A DNA stretch of 64,000 nt from Halomonas alkaliantarctica (GTDB lineage Bacteria; Pseudomonadota; Gammaproteobacteria; Pseudomonadales; Halomonadaceae), in NCBI RefSeq assembly GCF_029854215.1, contig NZ_CP122961.1, positions 3,224,001-3,288,000 on the forward strand, written 5' to 3'. Positions within the stretch are counted from its first letter, which is position 1, and every line of letters begins with the position of its first letter. The notes below the pieces were generated by a model. The model was not told where the DNA came from. It was given only the letters and a program-made list of their open reading frames with translations, and made no database searches. The translations under genes and the position numbers were made by a program. Below are positions 48,270 to 52,279 of the stretch, in pieces.

Positions 48270-49739
48270 ATGAAAGAGAGCAAAGACATGAGTGACCTGG
48301 ATATTAAGCACATTGATCCCACGCTGTATAACGAGGATCTCGCGCCGCTTAAACCCCAGGATCGTAACTGGGGCGCGTTTGAAATATTTAACGTTTGGTC
48401 TAACGATATCCAGAGCCTGTTTGGTTACACCCTGGCGGCTTCACTGTTTTTAACCTACGGCCTGAACGGCTGGGCGGTGATGGCGGCGATTATTCTGGCC
48501 GGTGTGATCGTGATGTTCCTGGTCAACCTCACCGGTAAGCCCAGCGTTAAATACGGCATTCCTTTTCCCGTCATGGTACGCGCCAGCATGGGCGTACGCG
48601 GCGCGAACCTACCCGCGATGCTGCGCGCCATCGTGGGGATTTTCTGGTACGGCGTGCAGACCTATTTCGCCTCCACCGCCGTCACCCTGCTGATTACGGC
48701 CTTTTTTGGCGCAGGCAATGGCAGCACCTTCCTGGGACTCTCCGGCGTGGCGTGGGTGTCATTTGTGATTGTGTGGCTGTTTCAGATCGCGATCTTCTGG
48801 CAAGGCATTGAGCGTATTAAGCACTTCCTTAACTGGGCGGGCCCGCTGGTCTACGTGGTGATGTTGGTGCTGATGGTTATTGTTTGGTATCAGGCGGGCA
48901 GTGAGCTAATCCCCGCCATTGGCACCATCTTCAGCGGTGGCACTGACACCAGCGGTAGTTCTATCGCGGCCTTTATGGCGATTGTGGGCACCATGGTGGC
49001 GTACTTCGCGGCGGTGGTGATCAACTTCGGCGATTTCTCCCGTTTTGTAAAAACCGAGCGCCAGATGAAGCTAGGCAACCTGCTGGGCTTGCCACTCAAC
49101 GTGGCGTTCTTCTCGTTTATCGCGCTGATTATTACTGCCGGTACGCTGGTGCTGTTTGGCGAGGCACTGACCAATCCCGCCGATATCGTTGAGCGTGTGG
49201 ATTCACTGCCCCTGACGATTATCGCCGCACTGACCTTCTTTGCCGCCACGGTGGGCATCAACCTAGTCGCCAACTTCATTCCCCCCGCCTATGACCTGGC
49301 CAACCTGTTTCCCAGCAAAATCAGCTTTAAGATGGGCGGTCTAATTACCGCGGTCATCGCGTTCTTTGTCGGCGCGCTATGGCTTTCGGTCATCAGCCAG
49401 ATTGGCGTTCCCGGCTTTGTGAATGCGCTAGGCGCCGTGGTCGCGCCCTTCTACGGCATTATCGTGGTCGACTACTACCTGATTAAGCGCCAGCACCTGA
49501 ACATGCAGGAGCTATTCTCATCAGCACCCGGCAGCGCCTACTACTACGTCAACGGTTGGAACACTCGCGCTCTTATCGCCTTTGGTGTGGCGGCGATGTT
49601 CTCGCTCTCTACCGTATTAGTACCCGCACTTTCAGCCCTTGGCGGCTACGGCTGGTTGATCGGTGCAGGCTTGGGTGGGCTGTTCTACTACGGTTTGATG
49701 CGGCAGTTTAAGGCTGCGCCTGTGTATGCTGAGCAGTAA
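48270..49739 (+). CDS. NCS1-family permease (second copy)
   Basis: A 489-residue NCS1 carrier distinct from its neighbour. Features: NEDLAPLKPQDRNWGAFEIFNVWSNDIQSLFGYTLAASL at the start, VKYGIPFPVMVRASMGVRGANLPAMLRAIVGIFWYGVQTYFASTAV, and VVAPFYGIIVVDYYLIKRQHLN near the end. The usual start is at 48270; the ATG at 48288 is also possible. Closest likely roles are allantoin or cytosine/hydantoin uptake. It ends at a strong terminator, and the AT-rich island begins directly after. Confidence 0.9.
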   Translation: MKESKDMSDLDIKHIDPTLYNEDLAPLKPQDRNWGAFEIFNVWSNDIQSLFGYTLAASLFLTYGLNGWAVMAAIILAGVIVMFLVNLTGKPSVKYGIPFPVMVRASMGVRGANLPAMLRAIVGIFWYGVQTYFASTAVTLLITAFFGAGNGSTFLGLSGVAWVSFVIVWLFQIAIFWQGIERIKHFLNWAGPLVYVVMLVLMVIVWYQAGSELIPAIGTIFSGGTDTSGSSIAAFMAIVGTMVAYFAAVVINFGDFSRFVKTERQMKLGNLLGLPLNVAFFSFIALIITAGTLVLFGEALTNPADIVERVDSLPLTIIAALTFFAATVGINLVANFIPPAYDLANLFPSKISFKMGGLITAVIAFFVGALWLSVISQIGVPGFVNALGAVVAPFYGIIVVDYYLIKRQHLNMQELFSSAPGSAYYYVNGWNTRALIAFGVAAMFSLSTVLVPALSALGGYGWLIGAGLGGLFYYGLMRQFKAAPVYAEQ

Positions 49740-49776
49740 ACAAGCAGGTCGTAACTAGCTGATTAGAAACTCATAC

Positions 49777-49810
49777 AAGCGCCATCGGTTTTACCGATGG
49801 CGCTTTTTTT
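49777..49810 (+). terminator. strong rho-independent terminator
   Basis: 13-bp stem AAGCGCCATCGGT / ACCGATGGCGCTT with loop TTT, then a long T-run. It ends the permease unit. Confidence 0.93.
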
Positions 49811-50191
49811 AGGTCGCGGGCTGGCGTGGCCAGTTAGAAACTGCCTGCATGCTCCCATAGCCCTACCAAGCAGCATATTTTTCGGAATCAAAACTCAGCG
49901 AAATGAGATATTTTCGATCTGTAGTGCGCGTTTTTCTGGTAGGCTCAAGAGATCGTGTGCTTATTTTTTCTGAAAGGCATTTGATTAGAACATTCAAAAA
50001 CAACATGGTTATATAAAGGTTATATGTGTTTATGCGCAAGTTAAAAAAGTGACCTGGAATGTTTATACGCATGCGCAATTTTCTGGCGGCCCTTAGTGAG
50101 ATAGAGTGATTTTTTTATTTCATATTAGACACTTGAGAATTTATGGTGCATTTTTGGTTTCCAAGAAAACGCTCATGCGTATTAATAAATT
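49811..50191. other. AT-rich non-coding stretch left of the cassette
   Basis: About 380 bases of AT-rich sequence with no convincing gene; the one longer frame here (49863-50078, minus) has an unlikely composition. It contains a direct repeat GGTTATAT at 50007-50014 and 50018-50025 (11-base step). No integrase or attI site was recognised. Confidence 0.5.
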
Positions 50192-50192
50192 G

Positions 50193-51038
50193 TTAGCACT
50201 CAATTAGTTACGGTGAATAATTTGCAACCAAAATCGCACACGCTCTTCCATTTCACAAAAAACTTGGATTTTTTGAAAGATATCCTAGTAGAAGGATTTT
50301 GGCCTAGGTACTGCCTTGAGGACTCTAAATGGTACGCGAATTCTGGAATGAATTATTACATAGCTTACCCAATGGTTTGCTTTTGTGATATTCCGCTATC
50401 TAGGGTTGATGAGCATGTGTCATTCTATGGTAACTACGGTATTGGTGTAACAAAGGAGTGGGCTCAAATAAATGGTTTGTCGCCTGTTATCTATCTTAGA
50501 GAAAACAGTTCTCCGCATCAGGCCTTGAAGAAATTATTTAGCAAAAACAACGAGATAGCGTTTTATAACAACTCCAATACGGATATAAATACACTTCTGG
50601 CAAATATTAAGCCTACTGAAGGAGTAATGAGAATTGGCTCGGAATTGGTTAATAAAGAATTCTATCAGGAAAATGAGTGGCGGTATTCTGTAACTGGTAA
50701 CCACTCGGCTTCGAATATCAGGCCATGGATTTCCGAAACAGAATTTGTGGATGAAAGCAGTTTGAATGCTGAAAACGCTAGAACAAAAGAACAGGCCAGC
50801 CTAAAAATATTGCCTTCTGATATTAAGTATTTGTTCGTCAATACAGACTCAGACATTCCTTTGTTAGTTAACTTTATTCAAAATGAGATGGATAAGTATC
50901 CCAGCAAGGATATCAAAATCCTATTATCTAGAATAACTTCTTTAGAAACTATTAGTCGGGATTTATAAAGTGCTAACAAGTCAATTAACTTCGCGCTTTC
51001 AGCGCCGGACGCAGCAAAGCTGGCCAGTTATTGAGGCG
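50193..51038 (+). mobile_element. candidate integron gene cassette carrying an AbiGi-family gene
   Basis: The element starts with TTAGCAC after a G (core GTTAGCAC at 50192-50199) and ends at the G of GTTAGAGC (51038). One gene fills it, starting 20 bases in, and a folded attC-like site begins 1 base after its stop. The inverse core GTGCTAAC (50970-50977) is the perfect complement of the 5' core, as expected when a circular cassette carries both halves of one attC. No integron integrase is visible. Length 846 bases. Confidence 0.72.
50213..50968 (+). CDS. AbiGi-family abortive infection protein
   Basis: A 251-residue cytoplasmic protein. The segments HTLFHFTKNLDFLKDILVEGFWPRYCLED, IAYPMVCFCDIPLSRVDEHVSFYGNYGIGVTKEWA and GLSPVIYLRENS match the AbiGi family, described as the antitoxin-like half of the lactococcal AbiG phage-exclusion pair. 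No AbiGii partner is present, so it may act alone or be a cargo gene. The start is a GTG without a strong ribosome site, and the gene is clearly AT-rich relative to its neighbours. It fills the cassette from 50193 to 51038. Confidence 0.8.
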   Translation: MNNLQPKSHTLFHFTKNLDFLKDILVEGFWPRYCLEDSKWYANSGMNYYIAYPMVCFCDIPLSRVDEHVSFYGNYGIGVTKEWAQINGLSPVIYLRENSSPHQALKKLFSKNNEIAFYNNSNTDINTLLANIKPTEGVMRIGSELVNKEFYQENEWRYSVTGNHSASNIRPWISETEFVDESSLNAENARTKEQASLKILPSDIKYLFVNTDSDIPLLVNFIQNEMDKYPSKDIKILLSRITSLETISRDL

Positions 51039-51045
51039 TTAGAGC
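50970..51045 (+). other. attC-like recombination site
   Basis: Inverse core GTGCTAAC (50970-50977), spacer AAG, then TCAAT-T-AACT (50981-50990) pairing with AGTTATTGA (51026-51034) over 9 bp with one unpaired T, as with the extrahelical bases of attC. The 3' part is spacer GGC then core GTTAGAGC (51038-51045). The inner variable region has two small hairpins (GCGC/GCGC and CAGC/GCTG). CTAAC pairs with GTTAG at the outer end. About 75 bases in all, within the normal attC range. Confidence 0.7.
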
Positions 51046-51060
51046 CAAATAGGTGATTCT

Positions 51061-51537
51061 ATAGCCGTCTACTTCATCATTGAAAACGAAGATTTTCTTA
51101 ACCAAAGGATCAAGATCGGTTTCAGTAAAACGCCCGGGGAGCGTATTCGAGCCCTACAAACCGGTAATTCCAGAAGGCTTGCTTTGATGGGCTGGATCGA
51201 GGTAAGTGATGATAAAGTATATGAAGAAATGCTCCATCAGAAGTACGCCGGTGCACGTGCTCTGAATGAATGGTTCGAAATCAATGATGAGGTTGTTCTT
51301 GAAGAGCTGAAAAATGCTGGCCCAAGTGGCTATATAGCCCTTCAAAAAAATATCGGCGAATTCTTAGGCCGTGATCGTGACGGTATCCCAGAATTTGTTC
51401 CGCCTTGGGAATGGGGTGATGCTGATGCCTCGGAATTCTGTCCACAATGCGGCTGTGCTTGTGGGCTGCAGTACAATGAAAATTATGGCGTTGAATGCTG
51501 CTTAAAGTGCGGAATCATTGAGTCAAACTATGAGTAG
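51061..51537 (+). pseudogene. Mug113/T5orf172-like (GIY-YIG fold) gene with lost start codon
   Basis: The frame from 51061 reads I-A-V-Y-F-I-I-E-N, followed by IKIGFSKTPGERIRALQTGNSRRL and a C-terminal zinc-ribbon pattern EFCPQCGCACGL then ECCLKCGIIE. The family normally begins M-x-V-Y-F-I, but here the first codon is ATA (51061-51063), with a plausible ribosome site AGGTG just upstream at about 51051-51055. No ATG, GTG or TTG occurs upstream before a stop at 51040. The first normal start is ATG 51187, past the conserved core. I read this as an inactivated gene; a rare ATA start is the alternative. Confidence 0.6.
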
Positions 51538-51649
51538 CAAAATTGACGCCAAAAACGGCGCAATTTACCTCAAACGTAAGAGCATCATTGATTCAGTGGC
51601 GGAAGGAGTATGATAATGTCACACCTCTCTCATGTTAAGAGTATCAGCC

Positions 51650-51904
51650 ATGAGCATGCACCGGAAAACCATCACGCTGACTGAACAGCAAAACGGCTGG
51701 GTGAAAGCCCAGATTGAAAGCGGCCACTTTGGCAACGATAGTGAATACATCCGCGATCTCATCCGAAGGGATCAGCAGGCCAAACAACGTCTTGCCATAC
51801 TGAGGGAAGCCCTCGTTGAGGGTGAGTCAAGCGGGAACCCGAACCCCCTGGATATATCGGCTATCAAGGCGGCTGGCCGTAAGCGGATCAAGGCGGTTGA
51901 TTAG
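51650..51904 (+). CDS. ParD-like type II antitoxin
   Basis: A roughly 85-residue antitoxin of the ParD/CC2985 type: MSMHRKTITLTEQQNGWVKAQIESGHFGNDSEYIRDLIRRDQQAKQRLAILREAL, with a ribbon-helix-helix DNA-binding N-terminus and a disordered C-terminal toxin-wrapping tail. The likely start is ATG 51650 or 51656. Neither has a ribosome site; AAGGAG lies farther up before a 24-codon frame (51610-51684). It overlaps parE by one base. Confidence 0.87.
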   Translation: MSMHRKTITLTEQQNGWVKAQIESGHFGNDSEYIRDLIRRDQQAKQRLAILREALVEGESSGNPNPLDISAIKAAGRKRIKAVD

Positions 51905-52200
51905 TGCTTGAATTGAATGTCACGCCAAAGGCGGAATCAGATCTCATCGGAATTTGGGTATATACCTGTGAGGAATGGGGCGTTGATCAGGCGGATAATT
52001 ACCTGGATCGCCTTGAGACCGGCACGAAACGGCTGATTGATCATCCATCACTTGGCGCGAACTACGACCATGTTTTTTCTGGTTATCGCAGATTACAGGT
52101 CGAGCAACACGCTGTTTTTTATCAACTGCATGACTCGAAAGTGCTCGTTGTTCGTGTGCTTCACGAGGATATGGATGCACCGGAAAGGCTTCTGGAGTAG
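51904..52200 (+). CDS. ParE-like type II toxin
   Basis: A 98-residue RelE/ParE-superfamily toxin starting with GTG: LNVTPKAESDLIGIWVYTCEEWGVDQADNYLDRLETGTKRLIDHPSLGANYDHVFSGYRRLQVEQHAVFYQLHDSKVLVVRVLHEDMDAPERL, with the typical basic patches and the C-terminal RVLHEDMD segment. ParE toxins of this kind poison DNA gyrase. It starts on the last base of the antitoxin stop codon, so the pair is coupled. Convergent with the GntR gene. Confidence 0.88.
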   Translation: MLELNVTPKAESDLIGIWVYTCEEWGVDQADNYLDRLETGTKRLIDHPSLGANYDHVFSGYRRLQVEQHAVFYQLHDSKVLVVRVLHEDMDAPERLLE

Positions 52201-52255
52201 GGGGAGCTATATTTTCGGCGCGGCTTCAAGGTCTCCATCAAGCCCCGTGCCGTTG

Positions 52256-52279
52256 CCGCCCAACAAGCTGCAGCTTGAG
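52256..52279. other. palindrome with a possible decayed attC half
   Basis: CAAGCTGCAGCTTG (52264-52277) is a perfect 14-base palindrome preceded by GCCCAAC (52256-52262), which fits an integron inverse core. No matching downstream GTT core follows, so it could be a deleted attC remnant or simply a hairpin between the convergent parE and GntR genes. Confidence 0.35.

Follow-up and report, generated by a model that had tools for sequence, protein, structure and literature searches.

The window, that is, the whole 64-kb stretch of DNA analysed here (positions 3224001–3288000 of a complete 4.23-Mb chromosome), includes a cassette carrying an AbiGi-family gene that appears to be inserted at the GTTA core of an attI without an integrase, long-standing at this locus in Vreelandella (Halomonas sensu lato), and to have been loaded in trans by an integrase encoded elsewhere, as in a distributed integron; we give this reading a probability of roughly 70 %. 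In the textbook picture, an integron has a single integrase and a single attI, and IntI recombines the folded bottom strand of an attC with a double-stranded attI between G and TTA. Under the proposed arrangement, an integrase encoded elsewhere would fold the bottom strand of the cassette attC and join it to the double-stranded attI core, and one integrase would supply, or would have supplied, several dispersed attI docking sites. For the genus as a whole, we lean slightly towards the view that two attI families occupy many chromosomal loci in Vreelandella, have been inherited in place over species divergence and are loaded in trans by one integrase.

All of the sequence features named between 50193 and 51045 in a preliminary description of this DNA were present base for base, and its claim of a lone integron-type AbiGi cassette was borne out by matches to an attC model, Pfam and PADLOC. 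The integrated cassette (50193–51038, forward strand, as are all features below unless stated) is 846 bp long and has a G+C content of 0.38, compared to 0.55 for the window. It starts in a 5′ core, GTTAGCAC (50192–50199), with the expected recombination point at G|TTAGCAC, the same place where other sequences begin behind the core in relatives. The cassette gene stops with TAA at 50966–50968, and the attC (50970–51045) follows, with an inverse core GTGCTAAC (50970–50977), spacers AAG and GGC, a 9-bp inner stem, TCAAT(T)AACT/AGTTATTGA, with a single extrahelical T, and a core GTTAGAGC (51038–51045). Hence, the 3′ end has the paired R and L boxes and the extrahelical base of an integron cassette. 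In a closed cassette circle an inverse core complementary to the cassette's own start is expected, as is established for integrons, and here GTGCTAAC does complement GTTAGCAC at 8/8 bases, as had been described. Neither core follows the consensus GTTRRRY given in PMC10127599, as GTTAGCA and GTTAGAG retain GTTA and deviate at the last positions. The sequences behind the attI at this locus in relatives begin with GTTA or GTTG, and the bases that follow are varied.

A search with an attC model, which had been proposed as a check, was made using R1, a covariance model based on 16 attC that lie in integrase-linked arrays of relatives, the attC in the window being left out. With filters off, R1 matched 50971–51044 at 25.5 bits (E=2.1e-4 over 64 kb), and this site ranked first, the next best of the nine matches listed scoring 13.9 bits. 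It was again the top site of the window in a heuristic attC scan (14.9 vs 13.4), and has a near twin in an integrase-linked array of another genome (L106:9759–9851). Used as a DNA query in its own genome, the attC gave a next best match, after itself, of E=0.33. Folding energy is weak evidence for the attC, being unexceptional (z −1.43; 16/200 shuffles fold equally well). Rfam gave no match in the window at the gathering threshold, and a promoter scan of 49720–51100 found two promoter-like matches against 4.0 expected in shuffles, and hence does not point to a cassette promoter.

The cassette gene (50213–50968) starts with GTG and encodes 251 aa. It belongs to the AbiGi family, scoring 103.8 bits with Pfam PF10899 (gathering cut-off 22.4) and matching PADLOC AbiGi at E=3e-52; 1049 of 1462 candidates are homologues at E≤1e-3, and eight distant loci (33–48 %) lie in viral contigs. 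A search for a relative with a solved structure produced none that was convincing, with one match at E=0.71. In the AbiG abortive-infection system, AbiGi acts with AbiGii against phage. The protein encoded in the window is 29.6 % identical to the plasmid AbiGI of Lactococcus and resembles lactococcal AbiG at the family level (PF10899, PADLOC AbiGi), but differs in that AbiGi is carried alone, in an attC-ended cassette; we infer that it protects against phage. The preliminary description had considered a phage-defence gene in a cassette inside a purine catabolism cluster unusual; a defence gene in a cassette is in itself not unusual, judging by the literature matches. The possibility that the gene is always present at this locus by descent was rejected, as PF10899 was found in only 4/82 genus genomes, and AbiGi genes without an attC structure, also envisaged earlier, were not seen among these genomes; each of the four is followed by an attC match no more than about 300 bp from the matched domain, and in L294 and L296 an attI of a second type, described below, lies upstream.

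In front of the cassette, and unremarked in the preliminary description, lies an orphan attI-like region (49881–50195) that ends in the core GTTA. It was found by nhmmer using a profile of only six intI-linked attI regions (L009, L103, L112, L115, L122 and L120, the last of which stops at a contig end) with E=5.2e-32, covering 313 positions (model 13–325 of 325), whereas the best match in 20 block-shuffled windows had E=5.5. The intI-linked attI of the same genome (L009:14127–14440) aligns pairwise with 49880–50215 of the window. The region is, hence, homologous to the attI that lies between intI and the first cassette. A left-edge motif, TGCGCGTTTTTCTGG, is at 49925–49939, and several unlinked sites start to resemble each other at or near it, these left boundaries being approximate as the HMM mixed orphan and linked seeds. 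An inner inverted copy of the core-adjacent motif (50062–50096, reverse strand) was detected through opposite-strand matches to R2, a sequence profile of the attI end built from 13 sites, and through a weak match (E=0.019) to the intI-linked profile. The 13 sites include that of the window, so that its R2 matches follow from how the profile was made, and the independent test of the attI is the intI-linked profile.

Directly behind the attC core is a GIY-YIG-type gene (MUG113/T5orf172; 51039–51537) that matches PADLOC PDC-S57 at E=1.6e-5. It has no ATG, GTG or TTG near the expected start and no attC was found after it, and this segment is perhaps a damaged second cassette. A ParD/ParE toxin-antitoxin pair follows (51632–52200), and the block from 51575 to 52267, or most of it, is common to three relatives at the same locus (L083, L086 and L089).

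An integrase-less attI was found after the same putative permease gene, a label that comes from reading the protein sequence, in 12 genus genomes that have a common upstream flank among the attI sites collected. The named best matches of the permease are mostly from Vreelandella and Halomonas species. In the ten genomes aligned, the distance from the permease stop to the attI core is 314–456 bp, too short to hold an intI, which is about 950 bp long; in the window, this interval includes a terminator-like hairpin. The core is intact at 11 of the 12 sites (GTTA, or GTTG in L099) and degenerate in L208. Behind the 11 intact cores there are ten different sequences, L098 and L100 having the same one, and a downstream attC match at eight; none was found behind the core at L090, L095 and L204. 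An empty site joining 50192 to 51039, for which a comparison with sister strains had been proposed, was not found, and relatives carry other sequences behind the core. The sequences show attI homology, an attC, and differing sequences behind the same core where there is no room for an integrase. As no intI is present in any genome measured, yet the sequences behind the core differ, an integrase from another locus is the simplest account. Differential, lineage-specific loss from one large ancestral array, leaving different first cassettes, would be a weaker alternative.

The genomes G027 (L098) and G075 (L100) match at 99.9 % over the kilobase directly behind the core and differ by a single 743-bp cassette. 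Both breakpoints lie within a GCGTTA common to the two, in keeping with G|TTA. At E≤1e-25, no intI match was found in G027, and G075 has one broken piece. As neither has an intact intI, the difference between these near-identical genomes calls for an integrase that was present earlier or was brought in, or for homologous exchange.

The preliminary description noted no integrase in the window, and indeed the genome's eight TIGR02249 matches all lie outside it; there is no intI adjacent to the attI to make up a complete integron. A search for an integrase elsewhere in the genome, also proposed, had a mixed outcome in that one is present and it is split in two frames. It is the sole integron integrase of the genome (C1:2359471–2360408), lies ~0.9 Mb from the window and has its own attI, forming a sedentary chromosomal integron at C1:2359126–2360408 with cassettes on the far side of the attI and one attC detected by R1. 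The reading frame (L009:14439–15418) is divided by a frameshift or a sequencing error. If this is a frameshift, the integrase of this strain is probably inactive, and so the site in the window may now be frozen in this strain. In the genus, intI above the family cut-off was found in only 19/82 genomes. The intI search was repeated without the query L044, which is not an integrase, and its match in L187 (100 %) and a match in L182 (33 %, downstream, another recombinase) were disregarded.

R2 matched 34/82 genus genomes at E≤1e-4, and 38/275 genomes of the family representing 3/24 genera, the four outside the genus scoring only 24–28 bits. In all, 78 sites of this first type were collected, eight by an intI or an intI fragment and 70 orphan. 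Five of the 70 (L208–L212) have E between 1e-4 and 1e-3, and L101, which is absent from the genus matches of R2, was added separately. The 70 are not independent, as 12 are at one locus, and L178, L179 and L180, from three genomes classed as different species, have an orphan attI followed by 7 kb of identical DNA. The upstream flanks of the 78 sites, some of which are cut by contig ends, form ten clusters of at least two and 21 singletons, and the cluster formed by the eight intI-linked sites is held together by intI itself filling the flank and is not proof of one chromosomal locus. The intI-linked profile found 67/70 orphan loci at E≤1e-3, missing L203, L211 and L212 and matching L101 and L209 weakly (E about 1e-4).

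An attC on the same strand within 2 kb downstream was found at 43 of the 65 eligible orphan sites, and upstream at 3/67. These counts draw on two lists of R1 matches, one at E≤0.1 and the other only at about E≤0.03, and leave out three same-strand downstream matches (L086:2440–2500, L083:7004–7086 and L089:4140–4203) and a palindrome (L083:6482–6548) that scored 15.9 and 15.0 bits on the two strands and amounts to one wrong-strand match. For the intI-linked loci, only part of the attC matches were counted, and L115 and L120 were outside the R1 scan. No intI was detected upstream of the attI in the 70 orphan loci at E≤1e-3, the span searched being about 2 kb for most and 1–249 bp for three at contig ends. 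Some members of one locus cluster (cluster B) retain about eight intI codons, and intI fragments lie beside the attI in L153 and L170. L190, L191 and L193 have a nearly identical attI-like site (around 2001–2075) that lies behind attC sites, with attC upstream and none found downstream, as if this attI were carried inside an array. An orphan attI-like site is also found in the same genome as the window (L101:3445–5562; C1 about 3946440–3948560), followed by a SIR2-like gene, an attC and an Mrr-type endonuclease gene, a possible second defence locus of the same design.

Cassettes are common to unlinked sites and joined at the core. The cassette behind the attI in L209 recurs in L165 directly after an attC match; that behind the orphan attI in L172 is found in L115, 360 bases behind an intI-linked attI; and that behind the orphan attI in L156 is found in L083, at the locus studied here, after a palindromic attC-like stretch, the likeness in all three pairs starting from GTTA. 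L158, an orphan, and L170, next to an intI fragment, share a cassette directly behind the attI with likeness up to the attC, the L170 core being other than GTTA. One cassette is present at both attI types (L317 and L156, 88.5 % over 540 bp), and the second-type site L341 has the L156 cassette later in its array.

Copies of the attI that belongs to the other integrase type of the genus (G049, L106) are dispersed as well. A profile of this attI, R3, matched 74/82 genomes (E≤1e-4) and gave as many as 14 matches per genome, counts that include second-strand matches of the same hairpin. From the 150-odd matches listed, 40 sites were picked by hand, omitting those by intI matches, and the share without intI is thus biased; 30/40 had no intI match at E≤1e-5. 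The other ten (L311, L313, L317, L319, L320, L324, L336, L339, L340 and L341) match the first 57–97 intI residues and nothing beyond, never including a C-terminal part, as if loss of intI had proceeded from its far end or only the beginning had ever been copied, and an eleventh, L342, has a weak match (E=8e-5). An attC within 2 kb was found downstream at 28/38 and upstream at 0/40. The genome that includes the window has ten R3 matches at six places, with cores of GTTA at 688541 and 1759243, ATTA at 2460889, and degenerate or absent cores at three. In the stretches scanned, three of the six (688541, weak at 18.5 bits, 1759243 and 2460889) have a downstream attC. With three first-type places, this strain has nine attI-like places, five of them with an intact GTTA core.

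An 18-bp inverted repeat lies just before the core of the second-type attI (L106:1147–1246 and 16 further sequences, alignment A6). Pairing is kept through two-sided changes at 6/18 pairs, with 90 % of cells paired, and the covariation score is 0.194 compared to 0.121 in shuffles (0/500), while the number of further pair types was not above that in shuffles (243/500). The retained pairing suggests that a hairpin is part of the second-type attI.

From the established chemistry and the absence of intI here, we infer that the recombinase is IntI acting in trans, and the junctions at G|TTA fit the established IntI signature. If instead each orphan attI is what remains of a complete integron that once had an intI in cis, since deleted, no action in trans would be involved. 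Some of the orphan sites are decayed integrons rather than copies of attI alone, because they retain pieces of intI; 10/40 second-type sites keep the first 57–97 residues, members of cluster B have about eight codons, and L153 and L170 have fragments. That 63/82 genus genomes have no intI above the cut-off also speaks for decay. Decay with no action in trans is nevertheless doubtful, as in the 12 genomes with the common flank and the gap of 314–456 bp (ten measured) intI would have been lost before divergence, yet the sequences behind the core differ. The one-cassette difference between the near-identical G027 and G075, and the 70 first-type orphan loci with no upstream intI match at E≤1e-3, also argue against it.

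It could also be proposed that the attI-like units are a family of small, non-autonomous mobile elements, bounded by inverted motifs and carrying an integron docking core by coincidence, which a transposase dispersed and IntI loaded afterwards. The left boundary at or near TGCGCGTTTTTCTGG that recurs in several unlinked sites, the inverted motif copy near the core and the many unlinked locations are consistent with this, but the left homology is longer at many sites and intI codons are kept at some, and the proposal accounts for the spread and not for the cassettes; we consider it distinctly unlikely. Much less probable still is that a stray cassette was inserted off target, in an attG-like manner, at a chance site of the chromosome. 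Such insertion has been described in other bacteria (PMC10127599 and PMC12444791), but here the target extends over 315 bp as an attI homologue rather than being a short degenerate core, and it is conserved at the same place in genomes without the AbiGi cassette. The preliminary description, correct about a lone AbiGi cassette and the lack of intI in the window, had favoured a CALIN type or an off-target insertion, and this part did not stand; both plain readings fail, since the insertion point of the cassette is the core of a full-length attI homologue (E=5e-32) that is also conserved at the same locus in other genomes. A plain CALIN was rejected given the single attC in the window and the attI in front, and an attG insertion given that an attG is neither attI nor attC and the target here is attI-like.

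The site in the window resembles several known arrangements. It is like a sedentary chromosomal integron in its attI sequence, its GTTA core and its attC-ended cassettes in one orientation, but differs in that its attI has no intI and is found by itself after a putative permease gene, and in that further attI copies are found elsewhere in the genome. CALINs, including those of Xanthomonas, likewise have cassettes at conserved positions of the chromosome and no intI next to them. In PMC12444791, at least two attC without intI are needed to call a CALIN, those of Xanthomonas are at seven conserved loci and CALINs are mobilisable in trans by a functional IntI; the window differs in having one attC only and an attI in front. 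The insertions into attG, i.e. sites that are neither attC nor attI, reported there are also away from an integron but are spread over many loci, whereas the target here is a full attI homologue. Secondary sites that are attI-like have been described (PMC10127599), and delta-attI-type cassettes of mobile integrons have attI sites within unusual cassettes of an array (PMC12901181). The latter are alike in having an attI sequence away from its usual single place, and differ in that the attI in the window is a stand-alone chromosomal docking site. Among the matches listed, which also cover PMC9892861 and PMC7923331, no report of dispersed integrase-less attI sites was found in the open-access literature. 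According to PMC9024848, IntegronFinder detects no attI outside class 1, and attI of the kind described here would therefore be overlooked.

Many inherited, integrase-free attI that draw on a common pool of cassettes would amount to a layout different from one integrase with one attI, namely reserved insertion places throughout the genome with no local integrase. If this is true, cassettes, including those with defence genes, would land in many genomic contexts rather than in one array, and unrecognised attI sites could account for the CALINs that other genera have at conserved loci. Dispersed attI would be a concrete and testable source of the cassette loci lacking an integrase that are recorded as CALINs by annotation tools, and orthologous sites with different cassettes, together with pairs such as G027 and G075, make the action of an integrase in trans directly testable.
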